Part shown: positions 46,516-64,000 of the stretch, piece by piece
How positions within the stretch are numbered: position 1 is the stretch's first letter
Layout of the letters: the number at the start of each line of letters is the position of its first letter
NCBI RefSeq assembly: GCF_000725625.1
Contig: NZ_JOHS01000019.1
Coordinates: 71,514-135,513 of the forward strand
Direction: 5' to 3'
DNA from: Streptomyces sp. NRRL F-6676
Lineage (GTDB): Bacteria; Actinomycetota; Actinomycetes; Streptomycetales; Streptomycetaceae
Length of the DNA stretch: 64,000 nt
Program-made: the position numbers and the translations under genes
Notes under the pieces: generated by a model
The model's input: the letters and a program-made list of their open reading frames with translations, nothing else
Database searches by the model: none
Told to the model about the DNA's origin: nothing

Positions 46516-48006
46516 ATGAGTCATCACCCCGAGCCCGTCGTGACCACCGCGCAGGGAGCCGTCCGCGGCCTGCGCCAGGGCGGCACCGCCGTCTTCCTCA
46601 ACATTCCCTACGCCGCCCCGCCCCGCGGCGCCGGCCGGTTCGCGCCGCCCCTGCCGCACGAGCCGTGGGACGGCGTCCGGGACGCCACCGTGCCCGGACC
46701 CAACGCGCCGCAGTCCGAGCGCAAGCTCGGCAGCGTCGACATGTCCCCCTACTTCGGCGCCGGATGGAGCCGCGGCGAGGACTACCTCACCGTCAACGTC
46801 CACGCGCCCGCCGGTGCGAACGGCGCCCTGCCCGTCATGGTCTTCGTCCACGGCGGCGGCTTCGTCGCCGGATCGACGAGGTCGGCCCTGTACGACGGCT
46901 CCGCCTTCGCCCGCGACGGCGTCGTCCTGGTCACCCTCAACTACCGGCTCGGCATCGCCGGGTTCCTCGACATCCCCGGCGCGCCCGCCAACCGCGGCCT
47001 GCTCGACGTGGTCGCCGCGCTGCGCTGGGTGCGGGAGAACATCGCCGCCTTCGGCGGTGACCCGCACAACGTGACCCTCTTCGGCCAGTCGGCCGGGGCG
47101 ACCATCGTCGGCGGCGTCCTCGCCACCCCGGAGGCCGACGGCCTCTTCCACCGGGCGATCGTCCAGAGCGGCAGCGGCCTGGGCGCGTTCACCACCGAGC
47201 AGGCCGCGCGCGTCACCCGGGCGGCGGCCGAGGCCCTGGGCGTCGAGCCGCACATCGACGCCTTCGCGGAGCTTTCGGACGAGAGCCTGGTCGAGGCCGC
47301 CTCCCGGCTCGTGGGCCTGGACCTGCGGACCGAGACGCACCACGACCCGCTGGTCGGACTCAGCCCCTTCAGCCTGGTCCTCGACACACAGCCCGCCGAA
47401 TCCGCGGCCGCGGGCCTGGGCGCCGGCGTCGACCTGCTCATCGGGACCAACGCCGAAGAGGGACACCTCTACCTGGTCCCGGTGGGCACGTACGCCACCT
47501 CCACCAGCGGTGACGTCGACGACACGGCGGCGCGCTCGCACCCGGAACCGGCGCGACTGGTCGAGACGTACCGTACGACGCGCCCCGGGGCGTCCTTCGG
47601 CGAGCTGCGCTCCGCCATCCTGGGTGACGCGCTGTTCGGCGCGGGGAGCTGGGCCCTGGCCGACGCGCATGCCGCCCAACCCGGATCCGCCACCTACGCC
47701 TACGAGTTCGCCTGGCGCTCCCACGCCCTGGACGGACAGCTGGGCGCCACCCACGCGGTCGAGCTGCCGTTCGTCTTCGACGTCGCCGGTCTTCCCCAGC
47801 TGCACGGCCCCGCCGCCCTGCTCGGCCCCGACGAGCCCCCCGCGGATCTCGCCTCCCGGATGCACGAGGCATGGATCCGGTTCGCCAGGACCGGCGACCC
47901 CGGCTGGGACCCGTACGACGCAGAACACCGCGTCACCATGCGCATCGACGCCGAGTGGACCCAGGCCGACGACCCGCGCGGCCAGGAACGACAGGCCTGG
48001 CGCTGA
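46516..48006 (+). CDS. Type-B carboxylesterase/lipase
   Basis: 496-residue serine esterase. Oxyanion motif VFVHGGGFVAGS, nucleophile GQSAGA (about Ser194), acid in GTNAEEGHLY and His in ATHAVELPFVF: a complete triad. No signal peptide, so cytoplasmic. The family hydrolyses carboxylic esters, p-nitrobenzyl esters and sometimes antibiotics' side chains. Second gene of the MBL-esterase-RidA operon. Confidence 0.9.
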   Translation: MSHHPEPVVTTAQGAVRGLRQGGTAVFLNIPYAAPPRGAGRFAPPLPHEPWDGVRDATVPGPNAPQSERKLGSVDMSPYFGAGWSRGEDYLTVNVHAPAGANGALPVMVFVHGGGFVAGSTRSALYDGSAFARDGVVLVTLNYRLGIAGFLDIPGAPANRGLLDVVAALRWVRENIAAFGGDPHNVTLFGQSAGATIVGGVLATPEADGLFHRAIVQSGSGLGAFTTEQAARVTRAAAEALGVEPHIDAFAELSDESLVEAASRLVGLDLRTETHHDPLVGLSPFSLVLDTQPAESAAAGLGAGVDLLIGTNAEEGHLYLVPVGTYATSTSGDVDDTAARSHPEPARLVETYRTTRPGASFGELRSAILGDALFGAGSWALADAHAAQPGSATYAYEFAWRSHALDGQLGATHAVELPFVFDVAGLPQLHGPAALLGPDEPPADLASRMHEAWIRFARTGDPGWDPYDAEHRVTMRIDAEWTQADDPRGQERQAWR

Positions 48007-48038
48007 CCGCGCGGCCACCCTCTCCAAGGACACACACC

Positions 48039-48422
48039 ATGACCAGAACCGTCATCGCCACCGAGAACGCGCCCGCCCTCGCGGCCCCGCTGTCCCAGGG
48101 CATCCGCAAAGGCCCCGTCCTCCAGGTCTCCGGACAGCTCCCGCTCGACCCGGACACCGGCGAGGTCGTCGGGACCACGGTCGCCGAGCAGACCGCGCAG
48201 ACCCTGCGCAACGTCACCGCCGTGCTCGAGGCAGGGGGCGCGGGCCTGGAGGACGTCGTGATGCTCCGCGTCTACCTCACCGATCCCGCCCACCTGGCCG
48301 AGATGAACGAGGCGTACGCGGCGGCCGTCGGCGAGCCCTTCCCCGCCCGTACCACCGTCTACATGCAGCTTCCGCCGGGACTGCTCGTGGAGGTCGACGC
48401 CCTGGCGGTACTGGGCGACTGA
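48039..48422 (+). CDS. RidA-family protein
   Basis: 127-residue trimeric RidA/YjgF protein, usually a 2-imino-acid deaminase. It contains the conserved SGQLPLDPDTG, the Arg in VVMLRVYLTD and ARTTVYMQLPPGLLVEVDALAV. The catalytic Arg position is preserved. ATG at 48039. Last gene of the operon. It may remove an enamine/imine product of the pathway or act more generally. Confidence 0.88.
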   Translation: MTRTVIATENAPALAAPLSQGIRKGPVLQVSGQLPLDPDTGEVVGTTVAEQTAQTLRNVTAVLEAGGAGLEDVVMLRVYLTDPAHLAEMNEAYAAAVGEPFPARTTVYMQLPPGLLVEVDALAVLGD

Positions 48423-48505
48423 CGCCGCCCGGTGCGACCCGGCCCGCGGCACCGACCTCACCCGGAACGACCTGCCGAACGGCCGCGATCAGACGTGACG
48501 CCGTC

Positions 48506-49114
48506 TCAGATGGTCGGGGTGTCGTCGACGACCGGCCGGTGGATCTCGACGACCGGCTTCCACCCCGCGGAGAACTCGATGAAGTCCGCGCGGGTGGGGT
48601 AGGTGTCGATCGCGCGGCGGTCGCGCTTGGGGCTGTCGGTCCCCTTGCGGCCCCGGGGGATCTGCTCCTCGAAGATGTCGACCTTCACGTCGGGGACCTC
48701 CTTGAGGCCCTGGCGCCAGATCTGCACGATGTCGGCGCCGAACGCCTGCCGGGCCGCGGCGTAGAGGGCCGTGAGGGAACCCTTGTCCCCACCGGGGACG
48801 AAAAGCGCCAGGTCCAGCACGACACCGGCGGACTGGAGGACCTCGATGGTCACCGGGCCGTTCTCGTCGGCCACGTAGACGCCGGCTTCGTTCTCGTCGT
48901 CGGGAAGGCAGGAGACCTCTTCCTGGAAGACGGTCCGCGCCGTGATCGAGCCGCCCTCGAAATCCCCGCCGGGCTTGGTCAGAAAAGCAGGGACATAGCA
49001 GTCGGGAAGCTTGAGTTCTGCCGTGTCGGCGGAAACGAAAAACCTGTCCTGCGCGCCGAGCTTCGTCACCTCTTCCAGCGAGAGGCGGCGAGCGGCGATC
49101 TTCTCCGTGTTCAC
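48506..49114 (-). CDS. Uncharacterised protein
   Basis: 202-residue soluble acidic protein I do not recognise. It starts MNTEKIAARRLSLEEVTKLGAQDRFFVSADTAELKLPDCYVP and contains a possible beta-rich core, with IVQIWRQGLKEVPDVKVDIFEEQ toward the end. It has one Cys pair far apart, and no signal peptide or membrane segment. Codon use and GC are slightly lower than in its neighbours. A 9-bp-arm palindrome (49179-49200) sits 65 bases upstream of the start. It is the last gene of the apparent accessory block. Confidence 0.7.
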   Translation of the reverse strand: MNTEKIAARRLSLEEVTKLGAQDRFFVSADTAELKLPDCYVPAFLTKPGGDFEGGSITARTVFQEEVSCLPDDENEAGVYVADENGPVTIEVLQSAGVVLDLALFVPGGDKGSLTALYAAARQAFGADIVQIWRQGLKEVPDVKVDIFEEQIPRGRKGTDSPKRDRRAIDTYPTRADFIEFSAGWKPVVEIHRPVVDDTPTI

Positions 49115-49200: not shown

Positions 49201-49436
49201 GTGGCCTCCGGCGGCCTGTGCGGGAGGCTCGTGGAGCGGGTGCCGGCCGGCCGGGAACACGCATGCGCCGGGCAGTGCCCCTCGCCGCTGTGCGGGAGAT
49301 CGGTTGACGGTGGCAATTCGGTGCGTTGGGCAACACGGAGGCACTAAGGAGAGTTTATGGTAAATATCGCCCATATTCCCTTCGGGGGAATGGCGGCAAG
49401 GTGAGGTGGTCCACGAGTCGCGTCCATGCATGCTCG

Positions 49437-49490
49437 GCGCGTCGATTTGAGACTAGCGGCAGGAGTTCGGGGTTCGATTCCCCTCGCGCC
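49437..49490 (+). ncRNA. tRNA-like 3' fragment (T-arm plus acceptor strand), not a full tRNA
   Basis: GGGGTTCGATTCCCC has the 4-bp T-stem and TTCGATT loop of a tRNA, followed by CGCGCCC. An upstream GGCGCG could pair with CGCGCC, but only about 40 bases lie between them, too few for a tRNA, and no D-arm or anticodon arm is recognisable. It may be a remnant left by integration of an element at a tRNA 3' end, or a tRNA with a piece missing. Confidence 0.35.
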
Positions 49491-49497
49491 CTTCCTC

Positions 49498-49528
49498 GGC
49501 CTTGATGCCGGCGCCCGGCATCAAGGCC
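49498..49528. terminator. Hairpin between the tRNA-like fragment and glgB
   Basis: Perfect 14-bp stem GGCCTTGATGCCGG / CCGGCATCAAGGCC with a 3-base loop. It can end transcripts from both sides: the tRNA-like fragment on the plus strand and glgB on the minus strand. Confidence 0.75.
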
Positions 49529-49575
49529 CTCTCCGTACCCGAGGCGATCGCAGCCCGGGAAGCCGAATCGATGTC

Positions 49576-52291
49576 TCAGGCCGGCCGCAGCCACACCGTC
49601 GACAGTGGTGGCAGGGTCAGGGTGAGGCTGGCGGGGCGGCCGTGCCAGGGGTGGGGGGCCGGTTTCGCCGGGTGGGGGTTGTGGACGCCCGAGCCGCCGT
49701 ACGGGGTCGCGTCCGTGTTGAGGACCTCGTGCCAGGCCGGGATGTCCTCCGGGACGCCCAGGCGGTAGTTCTCCCGGGTCACGGGGGAGAAGTGGGAGAC
49801 CACAAGGAGGGGGGTGCCCTCCGCGTCGTAGCGGAGGAAGGCGAAGACGTTGTCCTCCGCCGCGTCCCCCGTCACCCAGGAGAAGCCGTCGGGGGAGGCG
49901 TCCCGTTCCCACAGGGCCGGGGTGTCGCGGTAGACCGTGTTGAGGTCGCGTACCAGGTCGCGTACGCCGCGGTGGTCCGGTTCCGCGCCGTAGGCCGGGT
50001 CGAGCAGCCACCAGTCGGGGCCGTGTGCCTCCGACCATTCGGCGCCCTGGGCGAACTCCTGGCCCATGAACAACAGTTGCTTGCCGGGGTGGGCCCACAT
50101 GAAACCGAGGTACGCCCGCTCGTTGGCCCGCTGCTGCCACCAGTCGCCCGGCATCTTGCTCACCAGCGAGCCCTTGCCGTGCACCACCTCGTCGTGCGAG
50201 ATGGGGAGCACGTAGTTCTCGCTGTACGCGTACACCATCGAGAACGTCATCTCGTTGTGGTGGTACTTGCGGTGGATCGGATCGTGGCTCATGTAGTCCA
50301 GCGAGTCGTGCATCCAGCCCATGTTCCACTTCAGCCCGAACCCGAGCCCGCCGAAGCCGCCCGGGCCCTGGTGGTGGGTGGCCCGGGTGACGCCGTCCCA
50401 CGCCGTGGACTCCTCGGCGACGGTCACGACGCCGGGGCAGCGGCGGTACACCGTCGCGTTCATCTCCTGGAGGAACGCCACCGCGTCCAGGTTCTCCCGG
50501 CCGCCGTGCTCGTTCGGCGTCCACTGGCCCGGCTCCCGCGAGTAGTCCAGGTAGAGCATGGAGGCGACGGCGTCCACGCGCAGGCCGTCGATGTGGAACT
50601 CCTCGCACCAGTACACGGCGTTGGCGACGAGGAAGTTGCGCACCTCGTTGCGCGAACTCCGCCAGCGCCCACGCGTCGCGCGGGAAGTGCGCCGGCACCC
50701 AGTCCATCAGGACGCCTATCCCGGCCCGGTGCAGCGCGTCTATCAGGTACTTGAAGTCGTCGGGCGTGCCCAGGCGCGCGGTGGGGGCGTAGAAGCCGGT
50801 GACCTGGTAGCCCCAGGAGCCGCCGAAGGGGTGCTCCGCCACCGGCAGCAGTTCCACGTGCGTGAAGCCGAGTTCCGCGACATAGGCGGGGAGCTGGTCG
50901 GCCAGCTGCCGGTACGTGAGGCCCGGACGCCAGGACGGCAGGTGCACCTCGTAGACCGAGAACGGGGCCTCGTGCGCCGGGCGTCCGCCGCGCCGCGCCA
51001 GCCACTCCGCGTCGTCCCACTCGTGGTGCGAGGCCATGACGACCGACGAGGTGGCGGGCGGCACCTCGGTGCGGCGGGCCAGCGGGTCGGCGCGCAGCGT
51101 CTTCGAGCCGTCCGGGCGCGTGATCTCGAACTTGTACAGCTCGCCCTCGCCGATCCCCGGCACGAACAGCTCCCACACCCCGGAGGAGCCGAGCGAGCGC
51201 ATCGGGAACGCGGTGGCGTCCCAGAAGTTGAAGGTTCCCGCCACGCGTACGCCCCGCGCGTTCGGCGCCCACACGCTGAACCTGGTGCCCGGCACGCCCT
51301 GGTGCGTCATCGGCTCGGCGCCCAGCACCCGCCACAGCTCCTCGTGCCGGCCCTCGCCGATCAGGTGCAGGTCGAACTCGCCGAGCGTGGGCAGGAAGCG
51401 GTAGGCGTCCTCCGTCTCCAGCGTCGTCTCCTCGTACGCGACGACCAGCCGGTACTCCGGCACCTCGCGCAGCGGCAGCACACCGGTGAAGAACCCGTCG
51501 CCGTCGTCGTGCAGCTCGGCCCGCAGTTCGCCGGTGACCACGGTCACCGCCCGCGCGTACGGGCGCAGCGCGCGGAACACCACCCCGCCGGAGACGGGGT
51601 GCGCCCCGAGCACGGAGTGCGGGGCGTGGTGCGTGCCGTCCAGCAGCCGCGCGCGGTCCTCCGCGTGCACGGCGGGGGAGACGGCAACCTCGCCGTGCAC
51701 GGGGGAGGGGGTGGTTGCGGGTGCGGGGGTGGTGGACTGCGGCTTCGGTGCGGACGGCTGCTTCGCCGGTACGGATTTCTTCACCGGTACCGGCTTCTTC
51801 GCCGGGGGCTTGGCGACGGCAGTCTTCTTCTCTACTGCTGCCTTCTTCGGGGCGGCCGTCTTCGGCGCGGCCTTCTTCGCGACGGTCTTCTTCGCCGCCG
51901 TCGTCTTGGCTACGGCGGCCTTCTTCGCGACGGCCGTCGTCTTGGCGACGGCACCCTTCTTCGCGACAGCCGCCTTCTTGCCGACGGCCGTCTTCTTCGC
52001 GACGGCCGCCTTCTTGCCGACGGCCGCTTTCTTCGCGGCGGTCTCCTTCTTCTTGCTCGTCGTCTCCTTGCCCGCCGCCTTCTTCCCGGCGGCAGCCTTC
52101 TTGCCGCCGCCTGCCGGGCTTCCGGTGGCGCCGTTCTGGGGGGTGCTGTCGTCGGAGGTAGAGCGGGGGGTCACGGGCGGGGCCTCCTCGGCGGGTACGG
52201 CGGCGGTTGCGTCGGCGTTTGCGTCGGCGGGAAGAACGGCGGCGTCAGGGCGGCGACACGGCGGCGTCAGATCGGCGTCACGACGACGCAT
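49576..52291 (-). pseudogene. glgB: 1,4-alpha-glucan branching enzyme, interrupted by an internal deletion and frameshift
   Basis: GlgB makes alpha-1,6 branches in glucan. From ATG 52291 the product has a 150-residue N-terminal tail of Lys/Ala/Val repeats, the CBM48 domains ([20 protein letters not shown]) and the start of the GH13 barrel up to DAWALAEF at about 50654. There the frame changes, and the rest ([15 protein letters not shown] onward) continues in another frame to 49576, with catalytic [20 protein letters not shown] and [10 protein letters not shown]. Family comparison suggests loss of about 26 residues (around DGRPLYEH to WGTLEFDFG). As written neither half is an enzyme. Its start overlaps mak by 14 bases. 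Real lesion or assembly gap; see findings. Confidence 0.82.
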
Positions 52292-53744
52292 CGGCGGCCA
52301 GCCTGCGCACCGCCGCCATCGGCACGGGCAGCCAGTCCGGTCGGTGCCGGGCCTCGTACAGGACCTCGTAGACCGCCTTGTCGGTCTCGTAGGCCCGCAG
52401 CAGCACCGGCTCGGTGCGCGGGTCGACGCCCGCGACCTCCCCGTACCCGGTGCAGTACGCCGCCCGGCACGCGTCCGCCCAGTCGGCGGCGCGCGGTGCG
52501 GCCGACGGGTCGGTGGACGGCACGGAGTGGGCGGCGTAGTCGAAGGAGCGCAGCATCCCGGCGATGTCGCGGGCCACCGGCTGCGGCAGCCGCCGTTCGG
52601 CGAGCGGCTTGGACGGCTCGCCCTCGAAGTCGATCAGCGACCATGATCCGGACGCCGACCGCAGGCACTGTCCCAGGTGCAGATCGCCGTGGATGCGCTG
52701 CGCGGTCCAGGTGCGCCCCTCGGCGGCGAGGGCGCCCAGCGCGTCGAAGGCGGAGCGCAGCGCGGGGGCGTACGGCCGGAGCGCGGGTACGGCCTGCGCG
52801 GTCGACGCCAGCCGCTCGGTCATGCCGTCCACCAGCGGCCGTATCTGTGGATGCCCCAGCGTGACGGTGGGCAGCGCGCGGGCCAGCGCGGTGTGCACCT
52901 CGGCGGTGGCCCGGCCCAGCGCCCGCGCCTCGGCGGCGAAGTCCTCGCCCTTGGCCAGCTCGCGCAGCGCCAGCTCCCAGCCGTCGGAGGCGCCCTGCAC
53001 GAAGGGTTGCAGCACACCGAGGACGTACGGCTCCTCGGCGGGGTCGGCCCCGGAGGCGAAGCCGGACCGCTCCGCCGGCACCCCGTCGGCCAGGTCCGCC
53101 AGCAGCCATCCCGTCGGCGCCGGCACCCGCGGGCAGTGCTCCCGGGCCAGCGCGAGCGGCAGTTCGAGGTCGGGGTTGATGCCCGGCACGATGCGCCGGA
53201 GCAGCTTCAGGATGAACGTATCTCCATAGATGATCGAGGAGTTCGACTGCTCCGCGGTCGCCACCCGCGGCACCAGCTCCTCGCGTATCTCCTGGCGCGC
53301 GTCCCGCTCGAAGCGGAGCGCGCCGATGCGGGCCCGGGTGCGTATCGCCTCCAGGAGCAGTTCCGCGCAGCGGGCGTCGTAGAGCGCCTCGTAGACGGTC
53401 CGTCCGGCGAGCGGGCCCCGCTCCGCGTGGCCGATCAGCGCGGGTGCCAGCCGGGGCGGCAGCACCTCGCGCACGCCTATGAGGAGCTGGTAGCAGTCGC
53501 CGGGGTGGGCCGGGGAGCCCTGGGCGGCGGGCTGGTGGGCGCGGACCATGAGGTGGAGCAGGCCGAGCCGGGAGCCGACGGGCAGCAGCTCGGTGGCGGC
53601 GACCAGCGAGAACCCGGTGACGGGGCGGCCCTTGCCCGCGAACCACCGCTGCCGCGGCAGCCACTCGCGCAGCAGCGGGTCGAGGGACGCGAGGAGGCCG
53701 GGGCTGGTCGTGACGGTGGTGGCACGGGTGACGGCTTCCGACAT
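52278..53744 (-). CDS. mak: Maltokinase
   Basis: 488-residue kinase making maltose 1-phosphate from maltose and ATP, the GlgE substrate (called pep2 in Streptomyces). N-terminal cap domain ([22 protein letters not shown]), then a kinase fold like aminoglycoside phosphotransferases with Brenner motif [13 protein letters not shown] and the metal motif [24 protein letters not shown] precedes the ATG. Unlike its neighbours it is complete, with no frameshift or missing block. Confidence 0.92.
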
Positions 53745-53906
53745 GGCGTGCGTCCTTTCCCCGGGATGGTCGGGGTGTCTCTACTGCGTGCCCCGGGCAG
53801 GGCGAGGGAAACGCCCCGCCGGGGCCTGCCACGTGCGTGTACCGGTTCGGTGGGCCCGCGTGCGAGCCCGCGTGGGGCGTGTGTACGGGCCCTTCGCCCG
53901 CTCCCC

Positions 53907-53966
53907 GCACGCCCCCGGGGCACGCCGTACGCCCCCGGGGCACCCTGTACGCCCCGGCCCGACGCT
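53907..53966. repeat. 20-bp tandem repeat between treS and mak
   Basis: About 2.6 copies of a 20-base unit of the form GTACGCCCCCGGGGCACCCT, ending in the treS stop codon. The core CCCCCGGGG is itself palindromic. Confidence 0.6.
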
Positions 53967-55179
53967 CAGCCGGCGTCCCTCCGCAACCGGAACCAATAGA
54001 ACCCGTGCCCCGCCAGCGTCAACAAATACGGCAGCTGCCCGATGGCCGGAAAACGCACCCCGCCGATGAGTTCGACGGGGTGGCGTCCCTGGAAGGCCTG
54101 GAGGTCGAGTTCGGTGGGCTGGGCGAAGCGGGAGAAGTTGTGTACGCACAGGACGAGGTCGTCGCCGTGTTCGCGCAGGAAGGCCAGGTCGCCGTAGTAC
54201 AGGATCGGCGAACCGGGCAGGGAGAGCAGCAGCGCGGTGAACAGTTCGATCTGGTTGCGGTCGTTGTCCAGGAGGGGCGCGAGGCGGCGGCGGATGCCGA
54301 TGTTGGCGCGCATGCGGGGGTCCTTGGCGTACTCGGCCCACATGTAGTCGCGTTCCTCGTCGGTGACCATCTCCAGGGTCAGCTCGTCGTGGTTGCGCAG
54401 GAAGATCCCCCACTGGATTCGTCGCCGCCGGTGCTGTAGTCGCCGAAGTAGTCGACCACGTCCTCCGGCCACTGGTTCGCCTCCGCCAGCACCACGGTGT
54501 CCGGATAGTGGGTGTCGATCTCCTTGCGCACCCGCTTGAGGAACTCGTGCGTGGCCGGGAGGTTCTCGCAGTTGGTGCCCTCCTCCTGGTAGAGGTACGG
54601 CACCGCGTCGAGCCGGAAGCCGTCGATCCCCAGGTCCAGCCAGAACCGCAGCGCGGAGATCATCTCCTCCTGCACGGCCGGGTTCTCGTAGTTCAGGTCG
54701 GGCTGGTGGGAGAAGAACCGGTGCCAGTAGTACTGCTTGCGGACCGGGTCGAAGGTCCAGTTGGAGGCCTCGGTGTCGACGAAGATGATCCGCGCGTCCT
54801 GGTACTGCTTGTCGTCGTCGGCCCAGACGTAGTAGTCGCCGTAGGGGCCGTCGGGGTCCTTGCGGGACTCCTGGAACCACGGGTGCTGATCGCTGGTGTG
54901 GTTCATGACGTGGGCCGCGTCCACGAACTCCACGAAGTCCGCCAGGTCCCCGAACTCGGGCAGCACCGCCGTGTAGTCGGAGACGTCGTAACCGCCGTCG
55001 CGCAGCGGGGACTTGAAGAAGGGCGGCAGCCACAGGCAGTCGATGCCGAGCCACTGGAGGTAGTCGAGTTTGGCGGTGATCCCCTTGAGGTCGCCGATGC
55101 CGTCGCCGTTGCTGTCCTGGAAGGAGCGGACCAGGACCTCGTAGAAGACGGCGCGTTTGAACCAGTCCGGGTCCCGGTC
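53966..55179 (-). pseudogene. treS: Trehalose synthase (maltose alpha-D-glucosyltransferase), N-terminus lost and internally deleted
   Basis: TreS interconverts trehalose and maltose. The readable part starts [20 protein letters not shown], fused in frame to the end of glgE at about 55180, without its own start. Three further gaps: FVDAAH joined directly to VMNHTSD at about 54909 (about 10 residues missing, including the region-I Asp), STGGDE joined out of frame to [11 protein letters not shown] at about 54419, and LYYGD joined to [10 protein letters not shown] at about 54188 (roughly 95 residues missing). Nucleophile motif [11 protein letters not shown], acid LAEANQ and RNHDE remain. The C-terminus WFRLRRDAG is normal. 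Confidence 0.82.
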
Positions 55180-57053
55180 CGGTCGCAGGACGGTCAGCAC
55201 GTGTGCCGGCCTGTCGCCCGGCTCCAGTCGCACATAGTTGGCCCTGCCCCAGGAGTAGGTGTCACCGGTGAGCTCGTCGCGCACCGGCATCACCTCGTGC
55301 CAGTCGAGGCCGAGGTGCGGCATGTCCAACGACACCGTCGCCTCCTGGGTGTGGTACGGGTCCAGGTTCACGACCACCAGAACCGTGTTCGATCCCCGCT
55401 GTTTCGAATAGACGATGACCTCTTCCTTGTCGGCGTGATGGAAGTGCAGGTCGCGCAGTTGCCGGAGCGCCGGACTGCGCCTGCGTATCGCGTTCAGCTC
55501 GGTGATCAGCCCGGCGATGCTGCGCCCCTCGCGCTCGGCGGCGGCCCAGTCGCGGGGCCGCAGTTGGTACTTCTCGCTGTCGAGGTACTCCTCCAGGAAG
55601 ATGACGTCCGGGTCGCGGCCGTTGATCTCGCCGATCACCCGCTCCCAGAACACCACCGGCTTGGTGTGCGGGTTGTCCACCCGGAAGATCCGAACCCCGT
55701 GCGCCATCCAGTGCCGCAGCACCCGCACCGTCTCGGTGACGATGCCGTCCATGTCCGCGTCGAACGCGATCGGGTAGATGTCCTGGTACTTCTTCGGCGG
55801 GTTCTCCGCGTACGCGATCGAGCCGTCGCTGCGGTGGTGGAACCACTCCGGATGCTTCTCCACCCACGGATGGTCCGGGGAGCACTGCAACGCGAAGTCC
55901 AGGGCGATCTCCAGGCCCAGTTCCCCGGCCCGGGCGACGAACGCGTCGAAGTCCTCCAGGGTGCCGAGCGCCGGGTTGACGGCGTCGTGACCGCCCTCGG
56001 GCGAGCCGATCGCCCACGGCACGCCCACGTCGTCCGGGCCGGCCGACAGGGTGTTGTTGGGACCCTTGCGGAAGGTGGTGCCGATGGGGTCCGGAACGTG
56101 CCGTGCGCCGACGGGTCCAGCCCCCCGTTCTCGCTGCGCGGGAAGAACTCGTACCAGGAGCCGTACAGCGCCCGCTCCCGCTCCACCTGGAGGGGCAGCT
56201 CCTCCGAGGCGCTGACGGGGTCCCGCAGCGGGTGGCGGGCCAGTACCCGGTCCACCTCGGGGGTGAGCGCCGCCGCGAGCCGAGAGGCGGGCGGGCGGCC
56301 GGTGTCGCGCAGGGCCGCCACGGCGGCGCGCAGCACCGCCCCGGCCTGCGCTGATCCCACCGGCAGGCCCTCGGCGGCCCGCTCGTACAGCAGGGCGCCC
56401 TCCTCCAGGACCAGCGCGGTGTCCTGCCCTGCGGGCACCTTGATCCCGGCGTTGTGCCGCCAGGTGGAGACGGGGTCGCCCCAGGCCTCCACCCGGTACG
56501 TCCAGCGCCCCTCGGCCGGGACCGCGACCCGGGCGCCCCAGCGGTCGGTGCCGGGGGCGAGCTCGCGCATCGGGGTCCAGGGACCCGGGCGGCCCTCCGG
56601 GTCCGTCAGGACGACGTTGGCGGCGACGGCGTCGTGGCCCTCGCGGAAGACGGTGGCCGAGATCTCGAACTCCTCGCCCACCACCGCCTTGGCCGGCCGC
56701 CGGCCGCGCAGGACGGCCGGCGCCACGTCCAGGACGGGGATGCGCCCGACGACGGGGGCGGCCGGGGCGGGGGCCGACGGGGAGGAGGCCGTCGGTGAGT
56801 CGGCCGACGGGGCCGAGGCCGGGGCCGGGGCCGAGGTCGCGGCCGAACCGAGTGCCGAACCGGGACTCGAACCGGGCGTTGACCCGGGCGTCGAACTGGA
56901 TATCGAACTGGTGTGCGCGGGGGCCGCCCCGGGCGTGGCGCCCGGCGCGGATGTCCCCGGGCCCGGTGGACCGGCGCTGGTGGTGCCGGCGGGGCCGGTG
57001 GTGCCGGGGGAGCCGGTGGTCGGGGTTGCCGACGTGTGGTGCGTGGCGGGCAT
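55180..57053 (-). pseudogene. glgE: Alpha-1,4-glucan:maltose-1-phosphate maltosyltransferase, internally deleted and frameshifted
   Basis: GlgE extends glucan from maltose 1-phosphate. ATG 57053 has AGGAG 7 bases upstream. About 100 N-terminal residues are a Ser/Thr/Pro/Ala tail, then the usual start ([38 protein letters not shown]). At about 56088 HGTFR is followed out of frame by [10 protein letters not shown], skipping around 20 residues including DVVYLPPIH. At about 55594 DPDVIFL is joined to [10 protein letters not shown], removing about 100 residues with the general-acid AEAFTRP and the later catalytic Asp. The nucleophile region [10 protein letters not shown] is kept. No stop: the frame runs into treS. 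The deleted product cannot be active. Confidence 0.82.
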
Positions 57054-57176
57054 GACCGCTCCTGTCCGCTGCGAACGTGAGTGGGCGGCTGGCGGGTGTG
57101 GTGTGTGGTGCGGGGCCTGCGGGACGTACCGGAGGAGCCTTCCCACCCTGTTCGGGTGAGCAATCCGGCACTTTGT

Positions 57177-57320: not shown

Positions 57321-57526
57321 ACCCGGCCAGGCGCGGGCGGGGGCGGAAGAGGGGGATGGGGGCGGAGTATCCGGTGTGTTTTCTTCGCCCCGTGCGCGGT
57401 ACTGACGCAACGCGCCGCCCCGCGCCGTGGTTGCCCGGCCGTCGGCGCCGTTACCGTCGTGAGTGACGAGGGACGCACGCACAGTGCGCCCCGAAGCCGC
57501 GTACGCCCCTGGTGAAGGTGGGACTC

Positions 57527-60157
57527 TTGAAGGCCATCCGCAGGTTCACCGTCCGTCCCGTACTCCCCGACGCCCTCAAGCCGCTGAGCGACCTCGCCCG
57601 TAATCTGCGCTGGTCGTGGCAGGCCGAGACCCGTGATCTCTTCCGGTCCGTGGACCCCGAACGGTGGGCCGCCGTGGGCGGCGACCCCGTGCGGCTCCTG
57701 GGCAGCGTCCCGTCCGCGCGCCTGGCCGAGCTGGCCGGGGACCGCCGGTTCCTGCGCCGGCTGACCGCCGCCGCCGACGACCTCGCCGACTACACGAGCG
57801 GCGACCGCTGGTACCAGAGCCAGGCACAGTCGGCCGAGCTGCCGGCCGCGATCGCCTACTTCTCGCCGGAATTCGGCATCACGGCCGCGCTGCCGCAGTA
57901 CTCCGGCGGCCTCGGCATCCTGGCCGGCGACCACCTCAAGGCCGCCAGCGACCTGGGCGTCCCGCTGATCGGCGTCGGCCTGCTCTACCGGCACGGCTAC
58001 TTCCGCCAGTCCCTCTCCCGCGACGGCTGGCAGCAGGAGCACTATCCGGTGCTCGACCCGCACGAGCTGGCCCTCGCCCCGCTCACCGAGGAGGACGGCA
58101 CGCCGTGCCACGTCACCCTCGCGCTGCCCGGCGGGCGCCGGCTGACCGCCCGGATCTGGCTGGCCCGGGTCGGCAGAATTCCGTTGCTCCTGCTCGACTC
58201 CGACGTCGAGGAGAACGACCTCGGCGAGCGCGACGTCACCGACCGGCTCTACGGCGGCGGCAGCGAGCACCGGCTGCTCCAGGAGATGCTGCTCGGCATA
58301 GGGGGTGTCCGCGCGGTGCGCACGTACTGCCGGCTCACCGGCCACCCCGCACCGGAGGTCTTCCACACCAACGAGGGGCACGCCGGGTTCCTCGGCCTGG
58401 AGCGGATCGCCGAGCTGTCCGACGCCGGGCTCGACTTCGACGCCGCCCTGGAGGCCGTCCGCGCCGGCACGGTGTTCACCACGCACACCCCCGTCCCGGC
58501 CGGCATCGACCGCTTCGACCGCGAGCTGGTCGCCCGGCACTTCGGCCCCGGCGCCGAACTGCCCGGCATCGACGTCCACCGCATCCTCCACCTGGGGATG
58601 GAGAGCTACGCCGGGGGCGAGCCCAACCTGTTCAACATGGCCGTGATGGGGCTCAGGCTCGGGCAGCGGGCCAACGGGGTCTCGCTGCTGCACGGCCAGG
58701 TCAGCCGGGAGATGTTCTCCGGACTGTGGCCGGGATTCGACGCCGAGGAGGTGCCGATCACCTCCGTCACCAACGGGGTGCACGCGCCGACCTGGGTGGC
58801 GCCCGAGGTGGTCCGGCTCGGCGCCCGGCAGATCGGGGCGCAGCGCGCCGAGGACGCCATGACCGTGGGCGGCTCCGACCGCTGGGACTCGGTCGCGGAC
58901 ATCGCCGACCAGGACATCTGGGAGCTGCGCCGGGTGCTGCGCGAGAAGCTGGTGCTGGAGGTGCGGACGCGGCTGCACGCCTCCTGGCGGCAGCGCGGCG
59001 CCGGCACGGCCGAGCTCGGCTGGATCGACGACGTCCTCGACCCGGACGTGCTGACCATCGGCTTCGCCCGCCGCGTCCCCTCGTACAAGCGGCTCACGCT
59101 GATGCTGCGCGACCGGGACCGGCTGATGGAGCTGCTGCTCCATCCGGAGCGGCCGGTGCAGATCGTCGTCGCGGGCAAGGCGCACCCCGCGGACGACGGC
59201 GGCAAGCGGCTGATCCAGGAGCTGGTCCGGTTCGCCGACGACCCCCGGGTGCGGCACCGCATCGTCTTCCTGCCCGACTACGGCATGGCGATGGCGCAGA
59301 AGCTCTACCCCGGCTGCGACGTGTGGCTGAACAACCCGCTGCGGCCGCTGGAGGCGTGCGGCACCAGCGGGATGAAGGCGGCGCTCAACGGCTGCCTCAA
59401 CCTGTCGGTGCGGGACGGCTGGTGGGACGAGTGGTACCAGCCCGACTTCGGCTGGGCCATACCCACGGCGGACGGCGCCGCCACCGACGACGACCGGCGC
59501 GACGAGCTGGAGGCGGCGGCGCTGTACGACCTGCTGGAGCACCGGGTCGCGCCCCGCTTCTACGAGCGGGGCCGGGACGGGCTGCCCGACCGCTGGATCC
59601 AGATGGTCCGCCAGACCCTCACCCACCTCGGTCCGAAGGTGCTGGCCGGGCGGATGGTCCGGGAGTACGTGGAGCGGCTGTACGCCCCCGCCGCCCGGGC
59701 CCACCGGGCGCTCACCCCGGAGGCGGCGCGTGAGCTGGCCGCCTGGAAGGGGCGGGTGCGGGGCGCCTGGTCGCGGGTCACGGTCGAGCACGTCGAGACG
59801 TCCTCGGCGGCCGACCGGGCGGACCGGGCCGAGCTGGGCGCGTCCCTGGGGGTACGGGTCCGGGTGGGCCTCGGCGAGCTGGCGCCGGACGACGTCGAGG
59901 TACAGGTCGTCTCGGGTCGCGTCGACGCGGAGGACCGCATCACGGACGCGTCGGTGGTCCCGCTGAAACCGGCGGGCGGCGGCGAGGAGGGCCGCTGGGT
60001 GTACGAGGGCCCGCTCTCCCTGGACCGCGCGGGCCCCTTCGGCTACACGGTCCGCATCCTCCCCTCCCACCCGCTCCTGGCCTCGCCCACCGAGCTCGGA
60101 CTGCTCGCGGTGCCGTCGGAGGACGTGGGGGAGGGGGCCGGGGTGCTGATGCGCTGA
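57527..60157 (+). CDS. glgP: Alpha-glucan phosphorylase
   Basis: About 876-residue PLP-dependent phosphorylase releasing glucose 1-phosphate from glucan. N-terminal DUF3417 domain (RPVLPDALKPLSDLARNLRWSW), then the phosphorylase core with YSGGLGILAGDHLKAASDLG, FHTNEGHAGFL, ARRVPSYKRLTL and the PLP-Lys motif EACGTSGMKAALNG. The TTG at 57527 is chosen because AGGTGG is 5 bases upstream; GTG at 57512 or 57518 is possible. Intact, in contrast to its divergent neighbour glgE. Its end overlaps the convergent sigma-factor frame by 115 bases. Confidence 0.92.
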   Translation: MKAIRRFTVRPVLPDALKPLSDLARNLRWSWQAETRDLFRSVDPERWAAVGGDPVRLLGSVPSARLAELAGDRRFLRRLTAAADDLADYTSGDRWYQSQAQSAELPAAIAYFSPEFGITAALPQYSGGLGILAGDHLKAASDLGVPLIGVGLLYRHGYFRQSLSRDGWQQEHYPVLDPHELALAPLTEEDGTPCHVTLALPGGRRLTARIWLARVGRIPLLLLDSDVEENDLGERDVTDRLYGGGSEHRLLQEMLLGIGGVRAVRTYCRLTGHPAPEVFHTNEGHAGFLGLERIAELSDAGLDFDAALEAVRAGTVFTTHTPVPAGIDRFDRELVARHFGPGAELPGIDVHRILHLGMESYAGGEPNLFNMAVMGLRLGQRANGVSLLHGQVSREMFSGLWPGFDAEEVPITSVTNGVHAPTWVAPEVVRLGARQIGAQRAEDAMTVGGSDRWDSVADIADQDIWELRRVLREKLVLEVRTRLHASWRQRGAGTAELGWIDDVLDPDVLTIGFARRVPSYKRLTLMLRDRDRLMELLLHPERPVQIVVAGKAHPADDGGKRLIQELVRFADDPRVRHRIVFLPDYGMAMAQKLYPGCDVWLNNPLRPLEACGTSGMKAALNGCLNLSVRDGWWDEWYQPDFGWAIPTADGAATDDDRRDELEAAALYDLLEHRVAPRFYERGRDGLPDRWIQMVRQTLTHLGPKVLAGRMVREYVERLYAPAARAHRALTPEAARELAAWKGRVRGAWSRVTVEHVETSSAADRADRAELGASLGVRVRVGLGELAPDDVEVQVVSGRVDAEDRITDASVVPLKPAGGGEEGRWVYEGPLSLDRAGPFGYTVRILPSHPLLASPTELGLLAVPSEDVGEGAGVLMR

Positions 60158-63916: not shown

Positions 63917-64000
63917 TAGTGCTTCGTCAGGTTCTGGGCTGTCTGCGGCTTCTCCGAGGGCGGGGCAGGGGTCGTCCGCAGGTGGTGCAGGTACCGGTCC
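63913..64000 (-). CDS. 3' end of an unidentified gene leaving the window
   Basis: An open minus-strand frame enters from the right edge and ends DRYLHHLRT ... AQNLTKHY before TAG at 63915-63913. Only about 28 residues are visible and the composition is ordinary for Streptomyces coding DNA. The stop coincides with the right CTAG of the inverted repeat, mirroring the TetR gene on the left. I do not recognise the product. Confidence 0.4.
   Translation of the reverse strand, partial: DRYLHHLRTTPAPPSEKPQTAQNLTKHY

Follow-up and report, generated by a model that had tools for sequence, protein, structure and literature searches.

The GlgE pathway of Streptomyces is encoded by a four-gene cluster, of which S. 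coelicolor has two copies and S. venezuelae one, according to the excerpted text of PMC5042117. The main text of that paper, which cites Bruton 1995 and Schneider 2000 as the originals, contains no occurrence of the term ‘gene conversion’. The locus described here shares the duplicated glgE-treS-mak-glgB cluster known as the phase I and phase II clusters of S. coelicolor. It lies in a window of 64,000 nucleotides from Streptomyces sp. NRRL F-6676 (NCBI RefSeq assembly GCF_000725625.1, contig NZ_JOHS01000019.1, positions 71,514 to 135,513), which forms part of a draft assembly of 8.12 megabases (Mb) in 166 contigs (G000; the window is G000:C17:71514-135513). Three genes of the window operon, glgE, treS and glgB, appear to be lesioned. 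We infer, with a probability of about 0.96, that these lesions are an artefact of assembly, the joins being made by the assembler rather than the cell, and that the real glgE, treS and glgB genes are probably whole.

The second relevant system is the concerted evolution of the tufA/tufB type, and 26 genes with such lasting concerted evolution in prokaryotes are described in the excerpted text of Wang and Chen 2018 (PMC6053082). As in that type, distant paralogues of the glgE operons resemble each other more than they resemble orthologues, even at synonymous sites, and do so across many species. Unlike that type, the homogenised tract here consists of one glgE domain together with parts of treS, and the N/S and C domains of glgE, mak and most of glgB stay out of it. 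The words ‘Streptomyces’, ‘glgE’ and ‘trehalose’ have no occurrence in the main text of PMC6053082, a count that leaves aside its database and supplements. Full-text literature searches, judged by titles and the beginnings of abstracts, found no report of gene conversion of glgE operons; the similarity may be noted in Bruton 1995 and Schneider 2000, and the excerpted texts of PMC11046441 and PMC1769515 do not treat the matter.

The third comparison is with the collapse of repeats such as the ribosomal RNA (rRNA) operons. In short-read assemblies, identity of two copies beyond the k-mer or read length causes contigs to end or sequence to be lost. The present case is alike in that sequence is lost where the copies are identical and in that 16S rRNA was not found, but here the flanks are joined without any N, so that the result resembles a cluster of deletions inside genes.

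The window operon and its second copy

The minus strand of the window from 49576 to 57171 carries, by Pfam domains and open reading frames (ORFs), the four genes in the order of the GlgE pathway, with glgP divergent from them. The features are as follows.

55180-57146, minus strand: glgE (maltosyltransferase), cut at about 56089, at 55593/4 and at its 3' end, 55180; Pfam GlgE_dom_N_S and GLGE_C
53966-55180, minus strand: treS (trehalose synthase), cut at 55180 (5' end), 54910, 54416/7 and 54187/8; Pfam Alpha-amylase and Malt_amylase_C
52278-53744, minus strand: mak, also pep2 (maltokinase), no internal stop, mak class 1; Pfam Mak_N_cap
49576-52291, minus strand: glgB (branching enzyme) with a Lys/Ala-rich N-terminal stretch, cut at 50653; Pfam GlgB_N, CBM_48, Alpha-amylase and Alpha-amylase_C
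57512-60157, plus strand: glgP (phosphorylase), no internal stop; Pfam DUF3417 and Phosphorylase

The GlgE N/S domain, PF11896, has two matches in the assembly, one in the window and the other at C44:63322-63885. The glgE part of this second copy runs to the end of contig C44 (64418), and its TreS, mak and GlgB parts start from the first bases of contig C36. By mak, the window copy is nearest to class 1 and C36 nearest to class 2 of the two classes described below. A second glgE-treS-mak-glgB set, the search for which had been proposed in a preliminary description made from the window sequence, is thus present, although split over two contigs. No second copy of glgP was found beside the other operon.

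The lesions of the window were located by alignment to intact operons of other Streptomyces, namely eight reference loci (L051-L058) and a four-reference alignment, and all eight loci have sequence at the lesion places that is absent from the window. The missing lengths shift by a few bases with the choice of relative. The window contains no N (0), and the flanks are joined directly. Lengths are given in base pairs (bp).

56088-56130, minus strand: lesion 1, glgE, frameshift; about 65 bp missing near 56089; all 99 bp of the upstream flank 56089-56187 recur at C44:63876-63974, where C44 is lesioned too
55593-55594, minus strand: lesion 2, glgE; about 315 bp missing; the 99 bp of the upstream flank 55594-55692 recur as the final 99 bp of contig C44
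55172-55180, minus strand: lesion 3, glgE end and treS start; about 83 bp missing; C36 is lesioned here too
54909-54911, minus strand: lesion 4, treS; 30 bp missing at 54910; flanks with exact shared runs of 90 and 85 bp; C36 partner lesion 81 bp further on
54416-54419, minus strand: lesion 5, treS, frameshift; about 115 bp missing at 54416/7; flanks with exact shared runs of 88 and 70 bp; C36 has a partner lesion and a 38-bp insertion
54187-54188, minus strand: lesion 6, treS; about 291 bp missing; overlapped by a C36 lesion
50652-50654, minus strand: lesion 7, glgB, frameshift; about 80 bp missing at 50653; exact shared run of 79 bp (50575-50653); C36 partner lesion 80 bp further on

The preliminary description had reported seven discontinuities, three of them frameshifts, in glgE, treS and glgB; alignment to relatives and the reading frames bear out all of them, at coordinates right to within a few bases, and its statement that mak and glgP are intact agrees with the lack of an internal stop in either. 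Its further view that the intact genes are the less conserved pair needs correction: mak, 67% identical between the copies, was spared because it is not gene-converted, and glgP because no second copy was found beside the other operon, rather than through lower conservation.

The lesions of the two operons are paired one to one. In the coordinates of the reference G009a, seven window gaps face seven copy-2 gaps (the C44/C36 break included; the sixth copy-2 gap has one estimated end). Overlap is seen in five pairs, and the members of the remaining two are 80 and 81 bp apart, so that 7/7 lie within 81 bp. When copy-2 gaps were placed at random, all seven window gaps found a partner within 81 bp, a distance set after the data had been seen, in 2 of 20,000 trials, the mean number of partnered gaps being 2.2. 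Neither copy contains some 82, 46, 38 and 120 bp at four of the lesions, nor some 64 bp at lesion 1. A search of the genome with the whole operon of a relative found no other place for these segments among the 40 of 898 candidates scored, a search that very short pieces could escape.

The gaps also stop where the copies become identical. The window and copy 2 share 11 exact runs of at least 70 bp. Nine of these touch a lesion or come within 8 bp of it, and the longest, two runs of 99 bp each, stop exactly at lesions 1 and 2. This length is the maximum for the window against the copy-2 stretches, including C44:58000-64418, to which the comparison was confined, whereas exact runs between the copies reach 912, 809 and 311 bp in three complete genomes with two copies. 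A ceiling near 100 bp on shared runs suggests a k-mer or read length. Two marks of a collapsed repeat are present, with a very similar second copy lesioned at the same places (7/7) and identical stretches above a fixed length absent (the 99-bp ceiling, and no 16S found). The proposal of the preliminary description that identical segments dropped out and their flanks were joined is in this way supported by the second operon, by the one-to-one pairing and by the other two-copy drafts described below, many of which are likewise broken in glgE.

Near lesion 5, C36 (L049 1486-1622) contains a 38-bp stretch twice in tandem, and the insertion has two matches in the window, which would fit a joining of overlapping contig ends without merging.

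Signs of lost identical sequence in this and other drafts

The 16S rRNA gene gave no match in G000 by a search that detected it in just 9 of 14 control genomes; 5 or 6 copies were found in each of five one-contig relatives (5/5), and of five other drafts four gave none and the fifth gave fragments.

A wider survey counted glgE frames of fewer than 640 amino acids, a limit for a whole frame that was our own choice, in drafts (at least 20 contigs) and in near-complete genomes (at most 3 contigs). Such broken frames occur in 43 of 62 drafts with two or more PF11896 matches, in 4 of 46 near-complete genomes with two or more, and in 5 of 72 drafts with one. The survey covered 62 of the roughly 84 drafts that have at least two matches and 72 of the roughly 90 that have a single one; related species are among them, and Fisher values on these frame counts overstate their independence. 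In G135, counted as broken, one copy is split into two matches, and G117 passes the limit although its glgE is readable over just 58%.

Apart from the window there are 37 broken minus-strand glgE matches, and all of them lie near a contig end. In the coordinates of the reference locus L052, 28 of these 37 ends fall at 1290-1600, just inside the left edge of the conversion tract described below. In several genomes, such as G122, G147, G077, G198, G216 and G022, both copies break off at the same distance.

Probable gene conversion between the two operons

Both operons were taken from near-complete genomes, as a first set of 22 pairs and then a wider set of 38 readable pairs from 46 genomes that includes the first 22. 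G009, G043, G117, G223 and G288 were dropped (glgE or treS of one copy readable over at most 85% of the reference), as were G052, G195 and G226, whose second copy is a homologue that is distant or lies in a different place. G084 has a third copy, which was excluded; G156 was omitted for mak (partial) and G084 for glgB. A scan of genome contigs with GlgE gave 80 loci but no pairs, and these loci were set aside. In the pairs analysed, a distance of about 1.7 Mb or more separates the copies.

Some genomes have an additional, distant homologue of GlgE (L154, L158, L136 and L163), with 50-66% identity over GlgE; in the stretches analysed around it the GlgB match is absent, the TreS and mak matches are absent, or there are weak matches alone.

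When whole glgE, treS and glgB were each split into two clusters, the classes seen in mak did not emerge, and regions were therefore analysed apart, with borders chosen after the identity profile of the 22 pairs had been seen. Within glgE, at L052 1360-2440, third codon positions are 0.96-0.99 identical within a genome and 0.66-0.81 between genomes (22 pairs; the last bin of three bases was set aside), and between genomes the core is equally similar for copies of the same class and of the other class. For mak the within-genome values at third positions are 0.47-0.66 (22 pairs).

In the wider set the own paralogue is the closest sequence for the glgE core in 71 of 76 copies, for the N/S region in 0 of 76 and for the C region in 4 of 76. 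Along four consecutive parts of treS this applies to 58, 10, 45 and 17 of 76, for mak to 0 of 74 and for glgB to 9 of 74. In FastTree phylogenies the paralogues are sisters for the glgE core in 36/38 genomes (33 with support of at least 0.9), for two treS parts in 33/38 and 23/38, for the C domain in 4/38, for glgB in 4/37, for glgE N/S in 0/38 and for mak in 0/37. Conversely, a single split separates the copies in 38/38 genomes for N/S (support 0.989), 37/37 for mak (0.997), 32/38 for the C domain (0.753) and 33/37 for glgB (0.345). There is one mak of each class in 37/37 genomes.

The splits by N/S and mak, combined with the sisterhood of the cores, indicate that the duplication is old and that the core has been copied repeatedly. 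The marks of concerted evolution are thus found together: paralogues closer than orthologues, a duplication older than the species compared, and identity that extends to synonymous sites. Recurrent gene conversion, mostly limited to the GlgE catalytic domain and parts of treS, appears well supported from these sequence comparisons. It would leave long identical tracts, which draft assemblies lose.

The window itself agrees in part. What survives of its glgE core (56088-55594) matches C44 at 93.8% identity, with 88% of the piece covered, as against 88.7% for the best match elsewhere in the set, and the treS piece 55172-54911 also favours the own copy (95.8 vs 93.1). The window mak is 67.1% identical to its own second copy and 81.4% to another genome; for glgE N/S the corresponding values are 79.7% and 81.9%.

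Edges of the homogenised tract

The tract was taken as the longest stretch in which every 60-column window is at least 93% identical. Its median start is L052 1327 (quartiles 1306-1384) and its median end 2471 (2308-2480), and the stretch is at least 949 bp long in 27 of 38 pairs and shorter in 11. PF11896 matches L052 at about 841-1404, which puts the left edge close to where the N/S domains end, and the C domain of GlgE starts near L052 2515 (a position carried over by hand). With its edges near the end of N/S and the start of the C domain, the tract corresponds to the GlgE catalytic domain. Its counterpart in the window is as follows.

55487-56260, minus strand: counterpart of the conversion tract (L052 about 1327-2471), edges carried over by hand from blast mapping

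No class-diagnostic residues of the strict kind (at least 90% in each class) were found in glgE or treS. By a looser measure, made after the strict rule had found none (residue overlap of at most 0.3), 19 of 782 glgE columns separate the classes, 11 at L052 856-1291 and eight at 2482-2770, with none between. In GlgE, domain A is catalytic, domain B forms a lid and a large share of the dimer interface comes from domain N, according to the excerpted text of PMC5076824, which also gives malto-oligosaccharide as the ligand of domain C in the M. tuberculosis enzyme.

Domain-bounded concerted evolution of the glgE operons looks real. It is very likely that, in most two-copy Streptomyces, operons at least 1.7 Mb apart repeatedly exchange a block that matches the GlgE catalytic domain, along with parts of TreS, with fairly stable edges, whilst two isoform classes have diverged in the N/S and C domains, in the maltokinase and over most of the branching enzyme. 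One catalytic engine would then serve in two specialised isoforms, with selection or flank mismatch fixing the edges at the domain borders.

Origin of the lesions and competing explanations

The window would thus be one of two glgE-treS-mak-glgB operons of a Streptomyces. Over evolutionary time gene conversion, presumably by homologous recombination of the RecA type, would copy the GlgE catalytic domain and parts of treS between the operons, which would thereby come to share exact tracts of hundreds of bases. A draft assembly could not place such tracts, and pieces would be dropped and the flanks joined, as in the window and C36, or the contig ended, as in C44. Joined flanks and ended contigs would then imitate deletions and frameshifts.

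Several observations weigh against this account. Of the three treS pieces that could be scored on both sides, two, 54909-54417 (82.8 for the own copy, with the C36 gap counted, vs 94.9) and 54416-54188 (92.1 vs 95.6), favour another genome, although the pieces that survive are, by selection, the less identical ones. Lesion places fall inside exact tracts of at least 80 bp of complete pairs at a rate of 0.52 vs 0.23 for random placement, an enrichment that is just moderate (33 of 2000 placements reach 0.52); the glgB lesion place never does so (0.00, 22 pairs) and the junction of glgE and treS seldom (0.17). Moreover, 19 of the 62 two-match drafts have no broken glgE frame.

The preliminary description had offered, as its other possibility, a genuine decay of the window operon with function kept by the other copy. 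Seven gaps and three frameshifts in three genes would fit such a decay, and a precedent might be seen in the one-contig genome G009, the second copy of which (L058, G009:C1:157500-168500) is frame-broken in glgE, treS, mak and glgB, being either truly decaying or affected by sequencing error. The idea is rejected here on the ground that all seven places are cut in the other operon as well; no intact second operon that could keep the function is found in this assembly. Both copies would have to decay in step, with gaps that are staggered and partly complementary, and yet the gaps stop at exact shared runs, mak remains open between lesioned genes, and 42 of the 46 near-complete two-match genomes are without a broken glgE frame by the 640-amino-acid rule. 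Decay is accordingly very improbable.

The near identity of the GlgE cores might instead be attributed to selection on the DNA sequence itself (synonymous constraint) or to plain conservation, since enzymes of this kind are most strongly conserved in their catalytic domain. The third positions of the core, however, fall from 0.96-0.99 identity within a genome to 0.66-0.81 between genomes, whichever class is compared, which makes this explanation exceedingly unlikely. A recent independent duplication of the operon in each species, or import of a second copy, in place of an old pair that is converted, would account for core paralogues that are sisters in 36/38 genomes; a recent duplication of the whole operon, however, would make all genes sisters, whereas the same two classes recur by mak in 37/37 and by GlgE N/S in 38/38 genomes, with one mak per class in 37/37. 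Hardly any weight can be given to it. Conversion of an old pair, followed by loss of the identical tracts during assembly, is the reading retained here.

Other features of the window

The reading frames of the operon are consistent with three frameshifts, and the ORFs divide its domains as follows.

55635-57146: ORF with the GlgE N/S domain
54379-57171: ORF with the GlgE C domain and the N part of TreS together
53966-55054: ORF with the TreS C-terminus
49355-52291: ORF with the GlgB N part
49576-50643: ORF with the GlgB C part

The N-terminal stretch of GlgB (51700-52130, minus strand) is long, Lys/Ala-rich and histone-H1-like, with a weak Pfam HC2 match below the cut-off. At least 16 Lys per 80 residues upstream of GlgB_N were found in 20 of 40 class-1 operons and in 0 of 37 class-2 operons.

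The right end of the window, position 64000, coincides with that of contig C17, which is 135513 bases long. Beyond glgB, at 46516-49114, there are plus-strand frames, two of which are named here by their motifs.

46516-48006, plus strand: ORF of what we take to be a type B carboxylesterase-like protein
47871-48422, plus strand: region with an ORF for a presumably RidA-like protein

Implications

For annotation, these results mean that a glgE, treS or glgB ‘pseudogene’, or the absence of one of these genes, in a Streptomyces draft is not to be believed. If the tract holds up, GlgE would exemplify concerted evolution, between two distant loci, of a single enzyme domain without the rest of its gene, and the glgE pair could be used to ask what sets the edges of conversion, mismatch or selection on the isoforms. 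Isoform differences between the two developmental glycogen phases must then lie in the N/S and C domains of GlgE, to a small extent in TreS, in the maltokinase and in the branching enzyme, and not in the GlgE catalytic domain.

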